Shown: positions 2,303 through 25,783, numbered from the stretch's first letter. The stretch: 64,000 bases of DNA from Pedobacter indicus (GCF_003449035.1 NZ_QRGB01000001.1:2480001-2544000); one strand, 5' to 3'. Notes: a model not told the origin generated them from the sequence alone. A program made the numbers and translations.

Positions 2303-2970
2303 ATCTTTTTAAAATACATCAAATCTCCGCTGACATTATTGACTGAAGCAGTGGAAAGCGTTGATCCACTCACATTAGGCACACTGGTCGTACTGTTCGT
2401 AGAGTAAGCGACAAAGGTGTAAGCAGTTTCACCGTTTAACGTAAATCCGCCTTGAGCTTCCTCGTCGCCATAAGTATAAACGATATCATCCACATAATTA
2501 CCTATACTATCGTACACTACAACCCGGTACATGATTCCGATATTCAATTCTTCCACGACAGACGTTGCCGCGCTAATATTCTTGTTAGTAGACATTATTT
2601 TTTGGCTTTTGACAGACCCAGCGTCTGCTTGGATAGCCTGGTTCCCTGCACCCTCGGGAACCAAAGTGGCAAGGATTGAAAGGTTGTCTGAAAAAGGGAT
2701 AACCCTTGTCATAACCGCACCTGAATGATAAGACATGCCTCCCGTCGATCCCTTGGCAGGAGCATCTACTGAAGCGAGTTTAGCCGACTTAATTCCCGAT
2801 GGAACAAGCCCATCTACAGCTGACTCGACTCCTAAAAGTTTAATAAAAACAGTAGCAGGCCCCTCCTGATTAGTGGGGAGGTCACTTTTTTTACAAGAGT
2901 AGATGAGGGTAGACAATGCCAATAGGCCGATTACCGCTCCCAATAATCTAATGTTTGTTCTTAAGTTCAT
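2299..2970 (-). CDS. Fimbrillin-like lipoprotein, N-terminal half (frameshifted)
   Basis: The ATG at 2970 is preferred over the one at 3009 because it starts directly with a lipoprotein signal peptide (MNLRTNIRLLGAV...LIYSCKK, lipobox cysteine about residue 26); the longer start also overlaps the preceding gene. The sequence then follows the first domain of the paralogue at 4494-6188, with the TYTFVAYS..S pattern of fimbrillin/FimA-type two-domain surface proteins. It stops at VSGDLMYFKKI, exactly between the two predicted domains. The mature protein would be lipid-anchored and exported, but lacks the second domain. Together with the next ORF it would give about 550 residues, close to the intact relative. 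Family assignment to fimbrillin is by pattern, not by search. Confidence 0.72.
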   Translation of the reverse strand: MNLRTNIRLLGAVIGLLALSTLIYSCKKSDLPTNQEGPATVFIKLLGVESAVDGLVPSGIKSAKLASVDAPAKGSTGGMSYHSGAVMTRVIPFSDNLSILATLVPEGAGNQAIQADAGSVKSQKIMSTNKNISAATSVVEELNIGIMYRVVVYDSIGNYVDDIVYTYGDEEAQGGFTLNGETAYTFVAYSTNSTTSVPNVSGSTLSTASVNNVSGDLMYFKKI

Positions 2971-3002
2971 TGCTTTAATATCTTGTTTTTTCAAAATATG
3001 AC

Positions 3003-3203
3003 TTACCATTCAAAGGTTCTGTTGTCATCCGGATCTTCTTCCCATTCCTCCAATATAGTACCGTTCATATTTGTAGGGGTCACTTCTGCAGATCCTGCCG
3101 CAATAGAATGTTCTAGTTCCAAATTGATGACCTGTATATCAGGCGACAGATAAGGCCGTCGCACTGATGTATCCTCAATATTGTTATTACCTACTTTATT
3201 CAT
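3003..3203 (-). CDS. Small conserved peptide of fimbrillin-type loci
   Basis: 66-residue peptide without signal sequence. It has the pattern P-x-L-S-P-x-I-x-V-I-x-L-E-x-E..IAAGSAEV followed by an acidic tail ending EWEEDPDDNRTFEW. Short proteins of the form YxxPxxxxxxLExExxIAxxS next to fimbrillin or surface-lipoprotein genes recur in Bacteroidota, to my recollection; their role is not established. The gene sits 32 bases upstream of the lipoprotein start at 2970 and 46 bases after the OmpA-like gene, on the same strand, so it belongs to the same operon. It could be a chaperone-like, regulatory or exported peptide; nothing in the sequence decides this. Confidence 0.65.
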   Translation of the reverse strand: MNKVGNNNIEDTSVRRPYLSPDIQVINLELEHSIAAGSAEVTPTNMNGTILEEWEEDPDDNRTFEW

Positions 3204-3249
3204 TATATATCGTTTATTTTTAAGTTGTTAATTCCCTTATCTTTTGTAT

Positions 3250-4437
3250 TTATTCAGCTATAACAATAACCGCCCTGCTTACACGCGGATCGTTATAAAA
3301 CATGTTATCAACACCGCCTTTATGATCTTTGATCAAACGCGAAGCTGGAACGCCAAACTCATTCACCAATACATTGAAAATAGCTTCTGACCGTTCTCTG
3401 CTCAAACGCTCGTTGATTTGTGGGTTACCTGTACCTTTGTCAGCATATCCTGTAACCTTATATACCACATCGGAATTGTTTTCCATGATCGCTTTCGCAA
3501 AGAAGCCAAGATTAACGCGAGCTTCATTACTAACGATACTCTTGTTGATTGGGAAGGTCACTAATATCGGTGAAACTAAGACGCTTTTCTCGATTTTCAC
3601 ATCAGTGATTGTCTCTTCCTTCGATTCAGCCAATAGTTTACGCAATGCATCATTATCGGCAGCTAGTTGGGTTACACGCTGACGCATGGTATTTAGATCA
3701 GCTTCGCTGTAGCTGATAACAGTCGTTGTTGGTTTTTCCCAGGTGCGCTCTTTGAACCGATAAGCTACCCCCAAAGCAGCTGTGAGCATCCCTTCGGTCT
3801 TACGTGCACCGAGCTCGCCATCGAAACGGTCGTTTACCATGCTACCGCGTAAGTCTAAGGTCAGGTCGAACTTCTTACTCAAACTTAAACTATTGTAAAT
3901 ACCGAGGTTGGCGCTTATTTCTCTGGCTGTTGGTTCATCCTTTGTTACCATCCAGCCCAGGCCAACATAAGGACTAGTCGTGAATTTCCGATCCTGACGG
4001 TACCCACCTAACAGGTTATGCAAATTAAATAATACATCTGCATGCACATTGTAGTAATTGAACTCTTGCTTTTCCAACCACTGCGAAGCATCGTATACTT
4101 CGCCTGTAGAATGGCTTCCGTTCTGCGTAACGCCTATATTTTTGACTCCATTCAAAGCGATTCGGGTACCGATCCCTGGAGTAAACCACGTACCCAAATA
4201 GAACTCAAATGCGGGCGCCAAACGGTCACCAAATTTCATCTGCTTGTTGTGATCACCATAATAAAACTGCGCCCCCGCGCCTACTCCGATAAACCAGTTA
4301 TCAAAAAAGCGGTTGGTTACTACCTCGTATCGATCAGTACTGACCGCCACTGTTGTGTCCTTTGCAATTTCTGTGGACTGAGCCATGGTCGCTGAAATGG
4401 CGAAAGTTGAAATCAAGAATGTAAAAACGTATTTCAT
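3250..4437 (-). CDS. OmpA-family outer membrane protein
   Basis: About 395 residues from the ATG at 4437, preferred because it begins a clean signal peptide (MKYVFTFLISTFAISATMAQ). The N-terminal half has alternating aromatic and polar beta-strand patterns (WFIGVGAGAQFYYGD, FEFYLGTWFTPGIGTRIALNG) of a small outer-membrane barrel. A short coiled coil follows (LNTMRQRVTQLAADNDALRKLLAESKEE). The C-terminal OmpA/MotB peptidoglycan-binding domain contains VTGYADKGTGNPQINERLSRERSEAIFNVL with the usual NxxLSxxRA-like helix. In type V pilus loci of Bacteroidota, OmpA-like proteins accompany fimbrillins; lying between two fimbrillin-like lipoproteins it may anchor or assemble them. That role is inferred. 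Confidence 0.88.
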   Translation of the reverse strand: MKYVFTFLISTFAISATMAQSTEIAKDTTVAVSTDRYEVVTNRFFDNWFIGVGAGAQFYYGDHNKQMKFGDRLAPAFEFYLGTWFTPGIGTRIALNGVKNIGVTQNGSHSTGEVYDASQWLEKQEFNYYNVHADVLFNLHNLLGGYRQDRKFTTSPYVGLGWMVTKDEPTAREISANLGIYNSLSLSKKFDLTLDLRGSMVNDRFDGELGARKTEGMLTAALGVAYRFKERTWEKPTTTVISYSEADLNTMRQRVTQLAADNDALRKLLAESKEETITDVKIEKSVLVSPILVTFPINKSIVSNEARVNLGFFAKAIMENNSDVVYKVTGYADKGTGNPQINERLSRERSEAIFNVLVNEFGVPASRLIKDHKGGVDNMFYNDPRVSRAVIVIAE

Positions 4438-7489: not shown

Positions 7490-7790
7490 GAATGGCCGCG
7501 TCAAGAAGGTATATTTGGGATATCGTGCCGCTTGACACGTAATAAATGTCGATTACTAAAAAGCTCATCGCCGTTAAAATATTTAAAAGATGTGGTCTCG
7601 AGCGCGTCTTTTGCAGCAAGATTACTAATCCAATCGACAAGCTCAATAAACCGACCATTTTAACCAACCAGACATCGGTTTTTGGACCGGTCATAATCAT
7701 AAAGGATTCGATATGAAGCACTGGCCATATCCCGGTTGCTAAATAATAGATCCCTTGAGCTTTCGATGCTTTATTCCTTCGGTTCTCCAT
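7476..7790 (-). pseudogene. Conserved small membrane protein, probably truncated at its C-terminus
   Basis: The start at 7790 (MENRRNKASKAQGIYYLATG) gives about 104 residues and lies inside the last codons of the preceding gene, which suggests coupling. Hydrophobic helices are visible in YYLATGIWPVLHI, LVKMVGLLSLSIGLVILL and LLNILTAMSFLVIDIYYV. I recognise no named family. The ORF ends IYLLDAAIQDQR, and the bases coding the last residues are antisense to the AGCS fragment (its LIIFG codons), so the original C-terminal end appears to have been lost at the junction near 7488. Whether the shortened protein is still functional is open. Confidence 0.55.
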
Positions 7791-8016
7791 CTTCTGGATC
7801 ACCCATAGCGGAGCCGCCCGTACTTTCATCAATATCTAGATTGCTGTAATCGGGTATTTCTTGCTCATCATCTTTTTTCTTTTTCTCTTGGTCTGATTTT
7901 GAATGTTCTTTCTTGTTAGAGTCGTTCCGATCAGGTTGTTTTCCTCTATCCTGTTCGTTTCTCTTTTCGTTTCGTTCACCGTTGGCATCGGTATAATTGT
8001 GATTGCTCGTTTCCAT
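7771..8016 (-). CDS. Small highly hydrophilic, low-complexity protein
   Basis: 81 residues rich in Asp, Glu, Lys, Asn and Gln with no hydrophobic segment (NEKRNEQDRGKQPDRNDSNKK, then EKKKKDDEQE) and a conserved-looking acidic end DYSNLDIDESTGGSAMGDPEDGE. Such disordered soluble proteins are common in Bacteroidota and are often stress-related, but there is no motif to prove it. It starts 41 bases inside the 3' end of the truncated DUF421 gene, and its last codons overlap the start of the membrane gene at 7790. The sensible start and acidic tail support a real gene; the low complexity reduces certainty. Confidence 0.5.
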   Translation of the reverse strand: METSNHNYTDANGERNEKRNEQDRGKQPDRNDSNKKEHSKSDQEKKKKDDEQEIPDYSNLDIDESTGGSAMGDPEDGEPKE

Positions 8017-16829: not shown

Positions 16830-17291
16830 TTAAAACAACTCCTTAATCTTCCCTACCACCCTGTTCAAGTCCTCTTCCGTCAAGTTAGATCCAGACGGAA
16901 TACACAAGCCATTGGCAAACAGTTCTTCCGAAACACCAGAACCGTAGTACGGAGCATCCCTAAACACAGGTTGCATATGCATCGGCTTTCAGAGTGGGCG
17001 GGATTCAATGTTATCCGTTTCAAGATGCAAGCGAATCTTTTCGCGATCTGTACCACTCGTAGCAGGATCAACCAAGATCGTAGACAACCATCTGTTCGAA
17101 TAGTAACCAGCAGGTTCTTCTAAGAAAGAAATACCTTTCAGATCAGCAAAGGTACCCATCGCCTGACCGTCCAGCGTAGAGCCCAAAGCCTCCGCAGCAT
17201 CTTCAATCACCGGGATATCATAGTAATTCGCAAACTGCATGATCTCATCCATTTTAGTAGGCATCCCATACAGGTGCACCGGGATAATCTT
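16830..17291 (-). pseudogene. DegT/DnrJ/EryC1-family sugar aminotransferase relic
   Basis: Segments match PLP-dependent sugar aminotransferases: IIPVHLYGMPTKMDEIM..YDIPVIEDAAEALGS, then YYSNRWLSTILVD, ESRPL, KPMHMQPVF and a standard C-terminal end LNRVVGKIKELF. The N-terminal third is absent. An internal deletion joins GTFADLKGISF directly to LEEPAGYY, removing the PLP-lysine region (SFNGNK). The Trp expected in ESRPLWKPMHMQ is a TGA stop. Three independent lesions make it a clear pseudogene. Such enzymes supply amino sugars for glycans. Confidence 0.85.
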
Positions 17292-17297
17292 CTATAC

Positions 17298-17495
17298 TCA
17301 ATTCACCAGCTCCTCCTCTTCCGGTTCTTCATTCCAATACCCGCAGGTACAGATAGTAGTATGACGGTTAAAGTATTTATCAAACAGCTCGTATAAATAC
17401 AGCGCCTGATGATAGGCCAGTAAATTCTCCAACGTCAACTCACCGGCCATCTCCAGTTCCATTTCTATCAAATCTAAGCTCGTGATATCTTTCAT
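17298..17495 (-). CDS. Small protein with C-terminal CxCGYW motif (copy 1)
   Basis: 65 residues from the ATG at 17495, which lies one base after the stop of the upstream lipoprotein gene and suggests translational coupling. The second half, AYHQALYLYELFDKYF..HTTICTCGYWNEEPEEEELVN, is closely matched by the gene at 21552-21746 (AYTQAVYFYDLFQRCF..YTDICYCGYWREEPEKEPILN). The CxCG pair could bind a metal or form a disulfide. No signal peptide. I recognise no family. Its repeated presence at the 3' end of DUF6266-containing modules suggests a shared role. Confidence 0.65.
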   Translation of the reverse strand: MKDITSLDLIEMELEMAGELTLENLLAYHQALYLYELFDKYFNRHTTICTCGYWNEEPEEEELVN

Positions 17496-17496
17496 T

Positions 17497-18021
17497 TTAA
17501 TTCCAATTAAATTTTCGTAAAACCAATAAGGTAATCCCAATTGCGCCGATAAACAAGAGTAAGGGCCAAAACCATACTGACTTTCCCTCTCGCGTTTTAT
17601 CCGTCGCCAACGAACGCAAATGCACCTCCTCTTTCACATCCAGCTCTGCGACCGAATCAGCACGGCTCTCCATAGCCAGATCAGAGGAAGCCCGAAGCAA
17701 AGAGGAACCCTCGGACGCCTGGCGATACAACACCCGACCGCCCTGCAGTTCAAACCCCGTCTGCGGATCAAATGCGATCGCCGAATCAGACTCCATTACA
17801 GCCGTCACCACAGACGACCCAGCCGACCATCCATCCAATAACCATCTAGCATTCAGTATCGAACTATCGCTAACCTCCACACGCTCATCAACTACCGACA
17901 ACCTCTCCCCCCGTTCCTTCTCCTTCATTTTCCTCATCGCTCCACAACCACCAAACACGAATATTGCTAATGCTAGTATAGTGCCTAATACTTGTATATT
18001 TCTTCTCATTTTTCTATTCAT
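17497..18021 (-). CDS. Lipoprotein with C-terminal transmembrane helix (spanin-like topology)
   Basis: About 174 residues from the ATG at 18021 (18009 is also possible); longer starts add a charged N-terminus and spoil the signal peptide. It begins MNRKMRRNIQVLGTILALAIFVFGGCG, a lipoprotein signal with a lipobox Cys, followed by a long polar Ser/Asp/Glu-rich region (35-140) and a single C-terminal helix (WFWPLLLFIGAIGITLLVL) with a basic end. A lipid anchor at one end and a membrane helix at the other is the layout of phage unimolecular spanins, which span the periplasm. It lies downstream of the CHAP amidase and a 3-TM protein, matching the order of lysis cassettes. Spanin function is inference. 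Confidence 0.6.
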   Translation of the reverse strand: MNRKMRRNIQVLGTILALAIFVFGGCGAMRKMKEKERGERLSVVDERVEVSDSSILNARWLLDGWSAGSSVVTAVMESDSAIAFDPQTGFELQGGRVLYRQASEGSSLLRASSDLAMESRADSVAELDVKEEVHLRSLATDKTREGKSVWFWPLLLFIGAIGITLLVLRKFNWN

Positions 18022-18199
18022 CTTGAATTTCCATTTTTTCTGTCTTTTCTCCCTGTCTTCCGAGTGTTTATCAGTTTTTGTTATTTGTTTTGCCACCTGT
18101 CTTTCCACCATGTCGGTGCAGTGAATTTAAATTTCAACGCCTTGGCTTTGCGAGGAACCGAAGCAAAACACAGCGGCGAAATAAAATTCACTGCAAATA

Positions 18200-18802
18200 T
18201 CAAAGCCAGGTAGCAACCTGATAAATACTCGAAACCAACCTTCGTTTCCTATACACCCCATCACCCTCCCGGCTGCCCGCTTCATTCGTGTTTCCCTCAA
18301 CCGTGATGACATATTTATCGCCCCATTCATCCACGAAGCCCGCATGCGCAATCCGCTTCACCGAATTAAAGTAAATTCCGAAGACATCCCCTTTTTGTGG
18401 GAGTAACGTAGCCGCAGGTGACTTCCCGATAGGCCGCGACCCACGTCCCCGTTCCCAGATCACGCGTTTCTGTGGGAAGAGCGATGGCGACCAGGCTGTC
18501 CGCGGTTCGGGATAGCCTGCCTGGCCGTAAACCCAGGAGACAAAAGACGCACACCATGCATAGCCCTCACCCAAGTGTGTATAGCGCAGGTATTCCGCTA
18601 CCCGCTCACCATCGTTCCTACCCGTCCGCTCACGCACGCCAACCTCACCGAGGTAAATCTGCTGAAGCCGGTCGCGCGGGGAAGCTTCCACCGATCCAGT
18701 GGCGCCCACGTAAGGAGCCCTTACAGAAACGCCTTCGTCACGCTGATAAACGAATACAAGAGCGCTAAGTAGAACGAAAAATAAATTAATGCTTTTTGCC
18801 AT
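18200..18802 (-). CDS. CHAP-type peptidoglycan amidase/peptidase
   Basis: 200 residues with an N-terminal signal anchor (INLFFVLLSALVFVY) and a CHAP/NlpC-P60-like domain. The nucleophile is Cys84 in GEGYAWCASFVSWVY, His153 is in KRIAHAGFVDEW, and the polar third residue lies in TVEGNTN (Glu169/Asn171). GDVFGIYF precedes the histidine as usual. It cuts peptide cross-links or the amide bond of peptidoglycan in the periplasm or outside the cell. Its start lies 82 bases inside the 3' end of the 3-TM gene, in another frame; this tight overlap is typical of phage lysis genes. It resembles endolysins of the TIGR02594 type. Confidence 0.8.
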   Translation of the reverse strand: MAKSINLFFVLLSALVFVYQRDEGVSVRAPYVGATGSVEASPRDRLQQIYLGEVGVRERTGRNDGERVAEYLRYTHLGEGYAWCASFVSWVYGQAGYPEPRTAWSPSLFPQKRVIWERGRGSRPIGKSPAATLLPQKGDVFGIYFNSVKRIAHAGFVDEWGDKYVITVEGNTNEAGSREGDGVYRKRRLVSSIYQVATWL

Positions 18803-19188
18803 GATAGAAGATGTTTAAATGTTTTTTCCAGAAAATTACGTTGGTATGCATCCAGTACCGGCCATTGCCAGGCAATGAGCCATTCAGTCAGCATCAGAAA
18901 ACTGATCACCGTGATGGCCGACAGCGGCAGCACGGCCAAAATACCTAGGTCGATCGGCGCTGCCGTCACGTCCACCATCCGCAGCACATCCCCCGAAGCG
19001 ATGAAGGTCAGCACCGACACAATCAGCATGATGCCCAATTTATAACGGAGCGCAAAACGGAGGACTCTTTGTGCAGAACGGTAGACGTCTTGTATAGCAC
19101 GGAAGACTCCCTGTGCAGAACGATAAACCGTTTGCCCCAAGCGGTTTAAACCACCGGAAACAGTGTATGTAGATTCATTCGTTATCAT
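18721..19188 (-). CDS. Three-helix membrane protein, holin-like
   Basis: 155 residues. Residues 15-48 form an amphipathic stretch with an internal repeat (TVYRSAQGVFRAIQ then DVYRSAQRVLRFA). Three hydrophobic helices follow at about 50-66 (KLGIMLIVSVLTFIAS), 80-103 (LGILAVLPLSAITVISFLML) and 130-150 (ALIYFSFYLALLYSFI). Three helices in a small protein directly before a peptidoglycan hydrolase fits a class I holin, but no specific holin family is recognised. The last 82 bases overlap the CHAP gene. It may instead be a membrane partner of the amidase. Confidence 0.6.
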   Translation of the reverse strand: MITNESTYTVSGGLNRLGQTVYRSAQGVFRAIQDVYRSAQRVLRFALRYKLGIMLIVSVLTFIASGDVLRMVDVTAAPIDLGILAVLPLSAITVISFLMLTEWLIAWQWPVLDAYQRNFLEKTFKHLLSWQKALIYFSFYLALLYSFISVTKAFL

Positions 19189-19225
19189 TGTTGAAAATTT
19201 TTAAGTGATTAAAAGATTAAGGTTT

Positions 19226-19262
19226 AAAGAAGGGAAGCAGCCTCCCGGCCGCTCCCCTCTTT
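19226..19262 (-). terminator. Terminator hairpin after DUF6266 copy 1
   Basis: A long imperfect stem (about 16 bp with G-T pairs; AAAGAGGGGAGCGGCC pairing with the GGCTGCTTCCCTTCTTT arm on the minus strand) ends in a short T-run. It separates the DUF6266 gene from the lysis-like genes, so read-through or a separate promoter is needed for the latter. Confidence 0.55.
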
Positions 19263-19321
19263 ACTTTCTCCTGTATATACTATGGCGAATGACGGAGAAA
19301 GTACTTCGCTAGAAACCGACT

Positions 19322-19948
19322 CTAGAACTCGATCAACCCTAAATAGGTGCTCTTCGAGCGGCCAGCATTGTTGGCCGAGGTGGCAAATATCCATCCATGG
19401 AAGTCACCTCCGCCCATCTCCTCCGAAGTGATCGAATACAGGCCGTCCGCCCGCGTCGCATCCTGGAATACGAAGAAGTCGTCCGTCACCTCGCTATAAA
19501 GCACCAAGTTCACCACATCCGTAGGGTTCGCACCGTACAGATTACTCGCCGTATTCCAGCTGATATCCATACCGTCCATACCCGTACCCACTACCGCACG
19601 CACAGGCTGCATCCCACCGTTCGAAAGAACCACCTGATCATACGGGATATTGAAATTCGGGTACTCGCCTTCAACCAATCGCATTAGCTGACCGGTGGCC
19701 TTATTAAAGCCCGTCTGTTTAGCCTGCTGATCATCGTTGTAGCCGATATTAATCAGTTCTCGTAAAGGCGACAGAAAATTGATCACTAAGGCAAACTTTT
19801 CCCTATGTGCTATCTGCTTTTCCGTTGCCGGCTTCGATGAAGGTTTCGGCAATGACCGCAAGTAGTCGATCGAACGCCAATTTGCACCTACAACCGTTCC
19901 AACTTTCCCTGAAAACGATCCCAATACTCCTTTAACATAAAGTCCCAT
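19322..19948 (-). CDS. DUF6266 family protein (copy 1)
   Basis: 208 residues. The N-terminus (MGLYVKGVLGSFSGKVGTVVGANWRSIDYLRSLPK) is the hallmark of DUF6266, a Bacteroidota family of unknown function. The rest is beta-rich (VLSNGGMQPVRAVVGT, VVNLVLYSEVTDDFFVFQDATR). There is no signal peptide, and the glycine-rich start resembles an assembly or export segment rather than a leader. It is the first gene of a module that continues with a 3-TM protein, CHAP amidase, lipoprotein and CxCGYW peptide. A divergent relative lies at 22199-22948. Confidence 0.78.
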   Translation of the reverse strand: MGLYVKGVLGSFSGKVGTVVGANWRSIDYLRSLPKPSSKPATEKQIAHREKFALVINFLSPLRELINIGYNDDQQAKQTGFNKATGQLMRLVEGEYPNFNIPYDQVVLSNGGMQPVRAVVGTGMDGMDISWNTASNLYGANPTDVVNLVLYSEVTDDFFVFQDATRADGLYSITSEEMGGGDFHGWIFATSANNAGRSKSTYLGLIEF

Positions 19949-20227: not shown

Positions 20228-20416
20228 TCAACCCCACAAAAAAAATACAAGCAAGTAAATATAGTCCTTCAATAAAATTTTCAATCGCTTTAGCGCTATG
20301 CCTATTTGATTTTCGACGGTTTTTACAGAAATATTCAGTTCCGCTGCTATTTCCTTATGTGAAAGCTGCTTAAAGCGGCTCATTACGGCCAACCCCCTTC
20401 TGATGGCAAGGAACAC
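20228..20416 (-). pseudogene. C-terminal fragment of an ECF sigma factor
   Basis: The readable part, MSRFKQLSHKEIAAELNISV followed by KTVENQIGIALKRLK, is the region-4 helix-turn-helix of Bacteroidota ECF sigma factors, with their usual hydrophobic tail (DYIYLLVFFLW). The preceding residues FLAIRRGLAV do not continue into region 4 linker or region 2, and no sigma-2 domain is found upstream. Such sigma factors normally have about 180-200 residues. A GTG start at 20416 could give a 62-residue peptide, but it would lack core-polymerase binding. Confidence 0.65.
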
Positions 20417-21517: not shown

Positions 21518-21549
21518 AAAAAATAAGGCCCTCCTTTCGGAAGGCCTTG
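21518..21549 (-). terminator. Intrinsic terminator after CxCGYW copy 2
   Basis: On the minus strand AAGGCCTTCCGAAAGGAGGGCC-type pairing (AAGGCC.TCC with GGA.GGCCTT, one mismatch) is followed by TTATTTTTT. It starts right after the stop at 21552. Confidence 0.7.
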
Positions 21550-21551
21550 TT

Positions 21552-21746
21552 CTAATTCAAAATTGGCTCCTTTTCGGGTTCCTCCCGCCAGTAGCCACAA
21601 TAGCAGATGTCCGTGTAATGCTCGAAACACCGTTGAAAAAGATCGTAGAAATATACCGCTTGTGTGTAAGCGATCGCCTCTTCCAACTCCGCTCGCGCCT
21701 CGGTTACCGCTTTGTTTTTCTTTTCTGTTTTAGTATCCTGTATCAT
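21552..21746 (-). CDS. Small protein with C-terminal CxCGYW motif (copy 2)
   Basis: 64 residues. A lysine- and glutamate-rich start (MIQDTKTEKKNKAVTEARAE) leads into the conserved AYTQAVYFYDLFQRCF..YTDICYCGYWREEPEKEPILN, which matches copy 1 at 17298-17495 at most positions. It is followed at once by a strong terminator and preceded 25 bases upstream by the excisionase-like gene, with DUF6266 copy 2 further upstream. No family recognised. The paired cysteines suggest metal binding or a redox-active turn. Confidence 0.65.
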   Translation of the reverse strand: MIQDTKTEKKNKAVTEARAELEEAIAYTQAVYFYDLFQRCFEHYTDICYCGYWREEPEKEPILN

Positions 21747-21771
21747 ATCATCCGGTTAATTTTACAGACAA

Positions 21772-22077
21772 TTATTCAAACGTTTTTCTATTTTTATTAA
21801 ACAACTCCAACAACTCATCCTCGTGAATGTAAAGCTGCCGGCCGACCACCGTGGATGAGATATTGCCAGCCCGGATGTACCGGTAAACCGTATTCCGGTG
21901 GAGGTCCAGCAACTCACAAACCTCTTCGATCGTCAGGTAGCGCCTCAGCCTTGCGCCCTTTACATTTGCTTTCTGCTGCTTCAGCAAATCTCTTAATGTG
22001 GCCTCAACGCTCTTCACTTGCTTTTGTAAATCTTTCAGCATATTGGAAAAGCCAATTAAATTAAAGTCATCTTTCAT
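21772..22077 (-). CDS. Excisionase/MerR-like helix-turn-helix protein
   Basis: 101 residues. An N-terminal coiled coil (MLKDLQKQVKSVEATLRDLLKQQ) precedes a helix-turn-helix of the excisionase/DNA-binding-domain family: RRYLTIEEVCELLDLHRNTV, then YRYIRAGNISSTVVGRQLYIHEDELLELF. Proteins like this bind DNA in mobile elements or act as small regulators in Bacteroidota. It sits between DUF6266 copy 2 and the CxCGYW peptide, all minus strand, so it probably regulates this module. No integrase is present nearby. Confidence 0.82.
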   Translation of the reverse strand: MKDDFNLIGFSNMLKDLQKQVKSVEATLRDLLKQQKANVKGARLRRYLTIEEVCELLDLHRNTVYRYIRAGNISSTVVGRQLYIHEDELLELFNKNRKTFE

Positions 22078-22198
22078 AAGATCATATACTTAAGTTTGAA
22101 AAAAATAATAATTACTTTCGGGCCCGTTTACTTCTTCAAAGCTATTTCAACGCCCAAATTTAAACAAGGGTCACTTTTCGGGTCACCGCATTAAACGG

Positions 22199-22948
22199 CT
22201 ATTCCCTCGCCCAAACCCCCATGATCACGCTAGGGTTGAAATTTTTGTTGTTCAGATAAGCCATTGATTCATGATGAGCGTAGGTCCGGATATTAAAAAC
22301 GGCCAACAGCAAACCATCTTCCAGGAGTTTACCAGCGTTATCGACCAGCGGCGGTGTCAAGACAAACGAAGAGCTCCTGTCGTATAAACCAAGATTGTAA
22401 CGTTCCGACTCCCAATGATAAATGGGCACAGCGCTTTCCGACTCGAAATCATAATGAAAAATAGCGACCGCATTCTGCATCGACACCACCCCTTGTGGCA
22501 TCCGATAGTGATTTGAGGAAAAAAAGCGCAGTTCAAAATGTGGGATAAAGATACTGCACGTACCATCCTCAATAGTCATTGTGGGATCACTGCCTAACAT
22601 GTGCCGCGGCCGGATCTTCTTGGTCATCGGCAGGTCGCTGCTTTCACCAATTTTTTTCCATTCAAAAGTCTTTTCGTCGATCATAAACGACGAATGCCGT
22701 GTAACAAAGAAGCTCGTCAGCTTATTGTACAGATCCGATGACACCAAATTAAGGTTAAACTCCTTTAACTGCCGGTAGAATCTGCTCGATATTTTGATCG
22801 CCAACGCAAATTTCCCATGCTGCTCTTGTGGTTCAAAATTCTCCTTGTTTCGGCGCGGTAAAGACGTTACCACCGATTTACCGTCTACCACCTTGTAGAC
22901 CACATTTCCTACCCTTCCACGGATGAATCCGTTTTTAATAATAGCCAT
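22199..22948 (-). CDS. DUF6266 family protein (copy 2)
   Basis: 249 residues. The start MAIIKNGFIRGRVGNVVYKVVDGKSVVTSLPRR follows the DUF6266 N-terminal pattern (glycine-rich G.GKVGxVV..., then SLP) with changes, and the next block (EQHGKFALAIKISSRFYRQLKEFN) corresponds to HREKFALVINFLSPLRELIN of copy 1. The remainder is beta-rich and diverges strongly. No signal peptide. It heads the second module (DUF6266, HTH, CxCGYW). Function unknown. Confidence 0.7.
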   Translation of the reverse strand: MAIIKNGFIRGRVGNVVYKVVDGKSVVTSLPRRNKENFEPQEQHGKFALAIKISSRFYRQLKEFNLNLVSSDLYNKLTSFFVTRHSSFMIDEKTFEWKKIGESSDLPMTKKIRPRHMLGSDPTMTIEDGTCSIFIPHFELRFFSSNHYRMPQGVVSMQNAVAIFHYDFESESAVPIYHWESERYNLGLYDRSSSFVLTPPLVDNAGKLLEDGLLLAVFNIRTYAHHESMAYLNNKNFNPSVIMGVWARE

Positions 22949-24943: not shown

Positions 24944-25420
24944 ATGAAATGGGCAGAAAACATATCGTGGGCAGTTAGCTTTCTCTTGATCCTTCTTTGG
25001 GTATATACTGCCTTGAGCAAGGTGGCAGATGTAGAGATGTTCGCATCACAGCTGAGCCGACAACCCGAACCCGTCAGCACCTTGGCACCAATACTGGTTT
25101 GGGTACTGCCCTTGGTAGAATTGGTGGCGGCAACCATGCTGATGTTCGCGCAAACGCGGAAAAGCGGCCTTCTCCTCTCCTTCTTCCTGATGCTGGGATT
25201 TACAGTTTATGTAGCGCTGGCCGTTATAGGTTTCTGGGAAGACATACCCTGCAGTTGTGGCGGTGTACTTAATCAGCTCAGTTGGCGAGATCATTTATGG
25301 TTCAATCTATTCTTTCTCATGATCGCTGCACTTGGTTTAGCAGCAGAAAGACATTTAAGAAGATCAAAACATCAAGGGGGCAACCTGCAGCAGGCCGCCC
25401 CTGCGGGCGGACCGGCCTAA
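24944..25420 (+). CDS. MauE/DoxX-like redox-associated membrane protein
   Basis: 158 residues with four hydrophobic helices (ISWAVSFLLILLWVYTALSK, ILVWVLPLVELVAATMLMF, GLLLSFFLMLGFTVYVALAVIG and HLWFNLFFLMIAALGLA) as in the MauE/DoxX superfamily. A CSCGG motif (about 103-107) sits in the loop after helix 3; MauE/VKOR-like relatives use such cysteines in thiol-disulfide chemistry with a thioredoxin-like partner. The tail is Gln/Ala/Gly-rich (GGNLQQAAPAGGPA). A DUF6520 gene follows 63 bases downstream, and a TlpA-like gene lies in the facing operon, so redox maturation of an exported substrate is the likely theme. Confidence 0.78.
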   Translation: MKWAENISWAVSFLLILLWVYTALSKVADVEMFASQLSRQPEPVSTLAPILVWVLPLVELVAATMLMFAQTRKSGLLLSFFLMLGFTVYVALAVIGFWEDIPCSCGGVLNQLSWRDHLWFNLFFLMIAALGLAAERHLRRSKHQGGNLQQAAPAGGPA

Positions 25421-25483
25421 AGGTCAGATAAGAAAACATTGATACTAAAACAGTATCGAATTTACACATTTTAATTCATTAAC

Positions 25484-25783
25484 ATGAAAAAGATCAAAAT
25501 TAATCTACTGGCAATCATCGGAATGATGGTTGCAGTAGGAACGGTTGCCTTTACGGCACCGAAGGAAAACCTCGAATTGGTATGGTTCGATGTATCAAAT
25601 GGCATAATCCAGGTCGACGTTGAGATTGAAGAAGGCCCTGGTGGGGACTGCATTCAATCGCCAGCTGCTGAGACATGCATGGCTGCATTCGATAGTGCTG
25701 ATTTAGATACTAACGGACATGCCCCTACATCGGACTTAAACAGTCCGCTTGTGAAAGACCGGGCTTATACTGATCCAGAATAA
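25484..25783 (+). CDS. Small secreted DUF6520-like protein
   Basis: 99 residues beginning with a signal peptide (MKKIKINLLAIIGMMVAVGT, cleavage near VAFTAP). The mature part is acidic with two cysteines (GGDCIQSPAAETCMAAFDSAD), like DUF6520 proteins of Bacteroidota, which are short, exported and of unknown function. Cysteines in a periplasmic peptide next to MauE- and TlpA-like genes make it a candidate redox substrate. A bidirectional terminator follows. Confidence 0.7.
   Translation: MKKIKINLLAIIGMMVAVGTVAFTAPKENLELVWFDVSNGIIQVDVEIEEGPGGDCIQSPAAETCMAAFDSADLDTNGHAPTSDLNSPLVKDRAYTDPE

Follow-up and report, generated by a model that had tools for sequence, protein, structure and literature searches.

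Lysis cassettes of phage origin with a proposed fibronectin type III cargo in Sphingobacteriaceae chromosomes suggest a release system similar to type 10 secretion

In Pedobacter indicus a gene for a DUF6266 protein, a family (PF19781) for which we found neither an assigned function nor a paper, is followed by what looks like a set of phage lysis genes. The question that this arrangement raises is whether the lysis genes are what is left of a prophage, or whether they have been kept to let the DUF6266 protein out of the cell. A sequence-only reading of the window (the whole stretch of 64,000 nucleotides that was analysed) had favored the second possibility and proposed export as in type 10 secretion systems (T10SS). 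Our analysis suggests a domesticated phage lysis cassette with a fibronectin type III (Fn3) cargo, working in a manner similar to type 10 secretion. All the components described in that reading, i.e., the genes for DUF6266, a small protein with three transmembrane (TM) segments (3-TM protein), a CHAP amidase, a lipoprotein and a CxCGYW peptide, were recovered on the minus strand of 17298-19948. Together with their immediate surroundings they are:

16989-17297, minus strand: truncated fragment of a DegT/DnrJ/EryC1 aminotransferase gene (PF01041), abutting the 3' end of the unit
17298-17540, minus strand: CxCGYW peptide, probable start at 17495
17497-18021, minus strand: lipoprotein resembling a unimolecular spanin (from alignments; ORF open from 18111)
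18200-18802, minus strand: CHAP endolysin, 200 aa, with C84/H153/E169/N171 intact (PF05257, phrog_9589, alignment)
18721-18802, minus strand: 82-bp overlap, the CHAP gene starting within the 3-TM gene in the -1 frame
18721-19188, minus strand: 3-TM protein, holin candidate, 155 aa (family alignment; homologues 5' of the CHAP gene in phage contigs)
19225-19263, minus strand: strong terminator-like hairpin, separating the proposed cargo gene from the lysis genes (-28.2 kcal/mol, z -4.5)
19322-19948, minus strand: DUF6266 protein, 208 aa, proposed cargo (PF19781, E 5.6e-30)
21772-22077, minus strand: HTH_17/excisionase-like DNA-binding protein, upstream, candidate regulator (PF12728, E 2e-16)
22199-22948, minus strand: diverged protein with a DUF6266 N-terminal domain, 249 aa, candidate second cargo

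The DegT fragment matches PF01041 only at positions 115-170 and 276-359, and the candidate second cargo scores 24.7 bits against the DUF6266 profile over residues 2-62. Besides this diverged DUF6266-like gene and the HTH_17 gene, the flanks carry a glycosyl transferase, SusC/SusD-type genes and an AAA/HNH pair. As the earlier reading had stated for phage structural genes, no terminase, portal, capsid or tail gene was found among the flanking genes with Pfam and PHROGs. The CxCGYW peptide had been counted as part of the set, but it falls outside the conserved module, since its relatives are confined to the window, where a second copy lies at 21552-21746. This copy belongs to what looks like a second unit (21525-22948), in which the diverged DUF6266-like gene, the HTH_17 gene, the CxCGYW peptide and a terminator-like hairpin are found on the same strand with no lysis genes of their own.

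The identity of the lysis genes could be established to different degrees. The CHAP gene product matches both Pfam (PF05257, E 2.4e-6) and a PHROGs endolysin family (phrog_9589, E 5.5e-17), has a hydrophobic N-terminal segment (signal or SAR type) and shows W83, C84, H153, E169 and N171 invariant in an alignment of 14 sequences, confirming the family and the two residues (C84 and H153) originally singled out. For the 3-TM protein, Pfam, PHROGs and the phage protein search gave no match, to holin families or to others, and therefore its designation as holin rests on position and topology, which are those of a holin; relatives of it sit in phage lysis cassettes. The start of the CHAP gene 82 bases inside the 3-TM gene proved to be real and conserved. 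Of the 47 chromosomal pairs in which it could be measured, 39 have an overlap of exactly 82 bp and two more one of 79 or 85; among 22 measurable phage pairs, 82 bp is again the length in 13, and 79 in five. The 82-bp overlap can be taken as diagnostic of the cassette. The CHAP ATG is kept even where the 3-TM codon under it differs. A programmed -1 frameshift fusing both proteins was considered and discarded; since conservation extends to the CHAP ATG but not to the A-run at the overlap, separate starts are likelier. A natural holin-endolysin fusion, with the 3-TM and CHAP parts in a single ORF, was seen at another locus (L043, 6685-7836).

Unimolecular spanins are defined by an N-terminal lipobox and a C-terminal TM helix (PMC6139136). 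The lipoprotein, whose ORF spans 17497-18111 with the true start probably at 18021, has a lipobox, a Cys-free periplasmic domain and a C-terminal TM helix; the Cys of the lipobox is shared by all 26 relatives, phage ones included, and each of them terminates in a hydrophobic helix. By these predicted features, and as the last gene of the lysis cassette, it has the architecture of a unimolecular spanin. The periplasmic domain of unimolecular spanins is rich in beta strands; the model of the domain here has four short strands between helices, at low confidence (pLDDT 63.6).

Where the set came from is indicated by its viral relatives. Scanning IMG/VR with the CHAP alignment retrieved contigs that hold the same 3-TM and CHAP genes, often with a spanin-like gene. 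Among the neighbors of these genes are matches to families of head decoration, portal, minor tail, baseplate hub and tail fibre proteins. Because its relatives adjoin portal, tail and baseplate genes in phage contigs, the cassette can be considered a real lysis cassette, and what had been described as similar to one now has homologous phage counterparts, of the same gene order and overlap and in several cases with a spanin-like lipoprotein, next to virion genes. This supports that the set (holin candidate, endolysin and spanin) is a genuine lysis cassette of phage origin, located in chromosomes without virion genes. The tailed-phage cassettes differ from the chromosomal ones precisely in these neighbors and in the cargo, as neither DUF6266 nor the other Fn3 cargo described below was found beside any of 34 phage cassettes (over at most 6 kb read to either side). 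In a maximum-likelihood tree of the CHAP proteins a single branch (support 94/83) separates the 34 phage sequences from all 64 chromosomal ones. Rooting with a distant outgroup, in a quick tree search, did not settle the direction of transfer or a single origin, the module needing 3 changes and the branches being long. A single capture of a phage cassette by chromosomes thus appears likely, with a direction of transfer that is not firmly rooted.

In many loci of Sphingobacteriaceae, soil and water bacteria that keep the cassette outside any virus, one or two copies of DUF6266 are followed by the genes for the 3-TM protein, CHAP and the lipoprotein in this same order (the loci come from the window's own family, whose named members belong to this group). 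This is the conserved order that the sequence-only reading had expected from a survey of gene neighborhoods. Of the 150 best-scoring DUF6266 genes of the family that were listed, 47 are followed on their own strand, at no more than 3.5 kb, by a gene of this CHAP type, where chance predicts 0.08; 103 (69%) have no CHAP within that distance. These counts are not exact frequencies, as only the best-scoring matches are included. The linkage is far beyond chance. The proposed export is nevertheless weakened, the earlier reading having itself named a DUF6266 found mainly without these partners as evidence to the contrary. The window genome has three DUF6266 genes, of which two are solo, with no CHAP in a distance of 3.5 kb, and 20 of the 55 genomes with listed DUF6266 genes have no CHAP of the cassette family. 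Some of these CHAP-less DUF6266 genes precede other lysis sets, and about half of those read are solo; their products could be released in trans or serve otherwise.

As for the proposed cargo, the DUF6266 protein is a full-length member of its family (104.8 bits against a curated cut-off of 23.4 for PF19781) and lacks a signal peptide. Its AlphaFold model (pLDDT 88.8) consists of a helical N-terminal part and a C-terminal fibronectin type III domain (ca. residues 112-208), which superimposes on Fn3 with a Z of 10.6 and an rmsd of 2.0 Å over 87 residues. A PHROGs search with 75 DUF6266 proteins returned no consistent family. What the present analysis adds to the DUF6266 family is its Fn3 domain and its link to lysis genes.

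A different cargo was found in genome G019 (bacterium A37T11, as named for its locus L097), with 22 CHAP matches. The 18 cassettes read in this genome besides the one with DUF6266 have the order 3-TM, CHAP, a protein of ca. 210 aa and lipoprotein, and no DUF6266 (in a few of them the 3-TM or the lipoprotein gene was missed by its own profile). In the ca. 210-aa protein, too, the first half is helical and the end resembles Fn3 (Pfam fn3, E 0.0016, under the cut-off; PHROGs minor tail, fn3-like region, 1.1e-11). We considered it as a direct relative of DUF6266, but the comparison of profiles found no sequence relation. A third type, with a DUF6266-like N-terminal domain (24-30 bits), precedes some cassettes, and along the CHAP tree the label for the 210-aa cargo changes at least four times. 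Since ca. 20 cassettes of one genome hold this different protein with an Fn3-like end, the cargo of the cassette would be exchangeable. The copies of the cassette with the Fn3-like protein of 210 aa in this genome (L158-L175) are diverged from each other.

The reverse is also found, i.e., DUF6266 lies upstream of at least two further and unrelated lysis sets elsewhere. In Bacteroidales it is followed by a holin-family protein (PF05105, at the cut-off), a 136-aa endolysin (phrog_873) and a short lipoprotein that ends in a TM segment. The genes that follow DUF6266 in Proteiniphilum code for a GH19-type endolysin (phrog_181, 4.8e-27) and a lipoprotein similar to a spanin, and those in several Sphingobacteriaceae for DUF5675 and small membrane proteins, of which one has a weak holin match. 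That DUF6266 is paired time and again with lysis genes of unrelated kinds speaks for a functional tie between it and lysis. A possible parallel system in Bacteroides (HU-HIG/DUF4469) was dropped; the HU-HIG model matches ordinary HU proteins, and DUF4469 genes are rare and have no lysis neighbors. At one DUF6266 locus (L048, 7659-8864) seven ORFs of 64-67 aa, spaced by 139 bp, form a tandem repeat opposite the DUF6266 unit.

The arrangement of the units also gives hints about their expression. A relative of the HTH_17 protein is found upstream in 40 of the 64 cassette loci (41 of 43 genes co-oriented), and in many of 18 loci the upstream genes include a cluster with response regulators of the LytTR type. 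In the window, a short ORF at 20228-20416 groups with sigma-70-like proteins and is probably a remnant; sigma or anti-sigma-like genes are close to several other cassettes. Of 36 loci, 15 have a terminator-like hairpin in the stretch from DUF6266 to the 3-TM gene, against 1.9 expected. When only the 19 loci with a gap of 40-300 nt at this junction of cargo and lysis genes are counted, 11 have it (0.7 expected). The stretches preceding the cargo (0 of 38) and following the spanin (4 of 57) gave no excess. The hairpin could alternatively separate two independent transcripts.

There are several other explanations for these units. One would be that DUF6266 acts in the cytoplasm as a control of the cassette, e.g., as an antiholin or an endolysin inhibitor that times lysis, as might be expected from its tight linkage, its co-oriented position upstream of the holin candidate and the lack of a signal peptide. 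We regard this as improbable, given that unrelated proteins take the same place in other cassettes, that DUF6266 is found upstream of at least two unrelated lysis sets, that the 34 phage cassettes have no adjoining DUF6266 or Fn3 cargo and that many copies are solo. Neither do we give much credit to an altruistic suicide or anti-phage defence, in which DUF6266 would sense phage infection and the cassette would kill the cell early. A sensor-effector pair would agree with the regulator found upstream of the lysis genes and with a partner protein that varies and occurs in many copies, but the two N-terminal types are unrelated and only the Fn3-like end is common to both, the cargo can sit between endolysin and spanin, solo DUF6266 genes are common, and the hairpin favors the cargo over the lysis proteins in amount.

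A third alternative makes DUF6266 a protein of a small virus, with a structural or adhesion role, and the unit what remains of such an element. This alternative comes from a single record of 8 kb, OP209177 (L036, 1-8038), filed as Caudoviricetes, in which no tailed-phage gene was seen. The record codes for a Rep protein (PF23343) and a PAPS reductase and has three DUF6266-like ORFs, one of which reaches 86.5 bits along the whole profile; it also holds a CHAP endolysin (7526-7957) that is missing from its annotation. Since these three DUF6266-like proteins occur without the cassette described here, DUF6266 is not solely the cargo of such cassettes, and from the content of this record it may also have a viral past. 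However, no relatives of OP209177 were found in IMG/VR, no Rep-like family recurs among the neighbors of the 64 cassettes, the Fn3 fold is not known as a capsid fold and the units are retained in chromosomes by selection, all of which make this origin of the unit doubtful. In the viral collections DUF6266 relatives amounted to one weak match in a phage record and one IMG/VR contig (L157). In the latter, at 2540-4200, a DUF6266 lysis unit is found beside direct repeats (CRISPR-like) and Cas1/Cas2-like ORFs, and the contig is probably bacterial and misfiled as viral.

The least probable explanation is a prophage remnant with DUF6266 as a mere passenger, for which the phage origin of the cassette, the truncated DegT gene marking a past rearrangement at the border and a few broken copies (e.g., L051, with an insert in the CHAP gene) could be invoked, but which is largely refuted by dN/dS values of mostly 0.07-0.24 between close pairs for all four genes (DUF6266, 3-TM, CHAP and lipoprotein), by the retention of catalytic residues, overlap and gene order across genera, and by the recurrence of the same class of cargo with virion genes absent nearby. 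The few higher values, in the 3-TM and spanin genes, are in part due to gene overlap. Such low values rule out simple decay, and purifying selection on four genes with no virion genes in the vicinity means that this is not a decaying prophage.

We are left with a cassette that, as far as can be read from the genes, is intact, conserved, homologous to phage cassettes, located outside prophages and linked to small leaderless proteins with an Fn3 end. That Sphingobacteriaceae chromosomes captured it, and that selection has maintained it for the release of a cytoplasmic protein encoded in the same unit, seems to us somewhat better than an even guess. According to this release model, a trigger signal would be read by the upstream HTH_17 or two-component regulator, and the DUF6266 protein would accumulate first and in excess, because the hairpin after its gene would limit read-through into the lysis genes. 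The lysis proteins would then be made by read-through past the hairpin, and holin, endolysin and spanin would open the three envelope layers, so that the Fn3 protein exits the cell, probably (this is a guess) to bind a surface or glycan outside. The exit could take place by lysis of a subpopulation, a route supported for T10SS and reported for Yersinia entomophaga (PMC10847048), or by a limited opening, the non-lytic route also supported and reported for Salmonella (PMC13284979). The presence of a spanin leans toward the lytic route.

T10SS are known from a handful of Proteobacteria and clostridia, and their cargo are toxins or chitinases. The cassette described here shares with those of Serratia (ChiWXYZ), Y. 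entomophaga (HolA-PepB-Rz-Rz1) and Salmonella (ChiH-ChiP) the combination of a holin candidate with a peptidoglycan hydrolase, the phage origin, the location outside a prophage and a regulator nearby (PMC13284979, PMC10847048), and with the first two also the presence of a spanin (PMC10847048). It differs in belonging to another phylum, in the single unimolecular spanin that replaces Rz-Rz1, and in a built-in gene for a putative, exchangeable Fn3 cargo with many copies per genome. Two of the features by which a T10SS is recognized, derivation from a phage lysis cassette and location outside a functional prophage, appear to apply. T10SS are also recognized by a pair of holin and peptidoglycan hydrolase, of which the hydrolase is clear here and the holin a candidate, and by the release of a cargo protein with no other export route. 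Another parallel is provided by colicin operons, in which the cargo gene is followed by a terminator and then by the lysis gene. The cargo in first place, the terminator-like hairpin and the release genes at the end are alike, whereas colicin operons have a single lysis lipoprotein instead of the full holin-endolysin-spanin set. Neither a toxin or immunity domain in the cargo nor an immunity gene between cargo and lysis genes was found.

More tentatively, and a little short of an even chance in our view, the Bacteroidota would possess a T10SS of their own, in which domesticated holin-endolysin-spanin cassettes, up to ca. 20 per genome and each with its own exchangeable cytoplasmic Fn3 cargo and attenuator, act as specialized release units. 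Among the papers searched, none links Bacteroidota to “type 10 secretion” or Sphingobacteriaceae to “lysis cassette”. If true, holin-based release would extend to another phylum, DUF6266 would gain a testable role, and the many cassettes would provide natural replicates for the question of whether they secrete or lyse.

In an empty-site comparison, the flank of the unit was not found in the genome of the same genus used. Farther upstream in the window, 514 bp (24987-25500) with a MauE-like gene inside are repeated ca. 0.9 Mb away in the same genome (G000:C1:3449868) at 91% identity.
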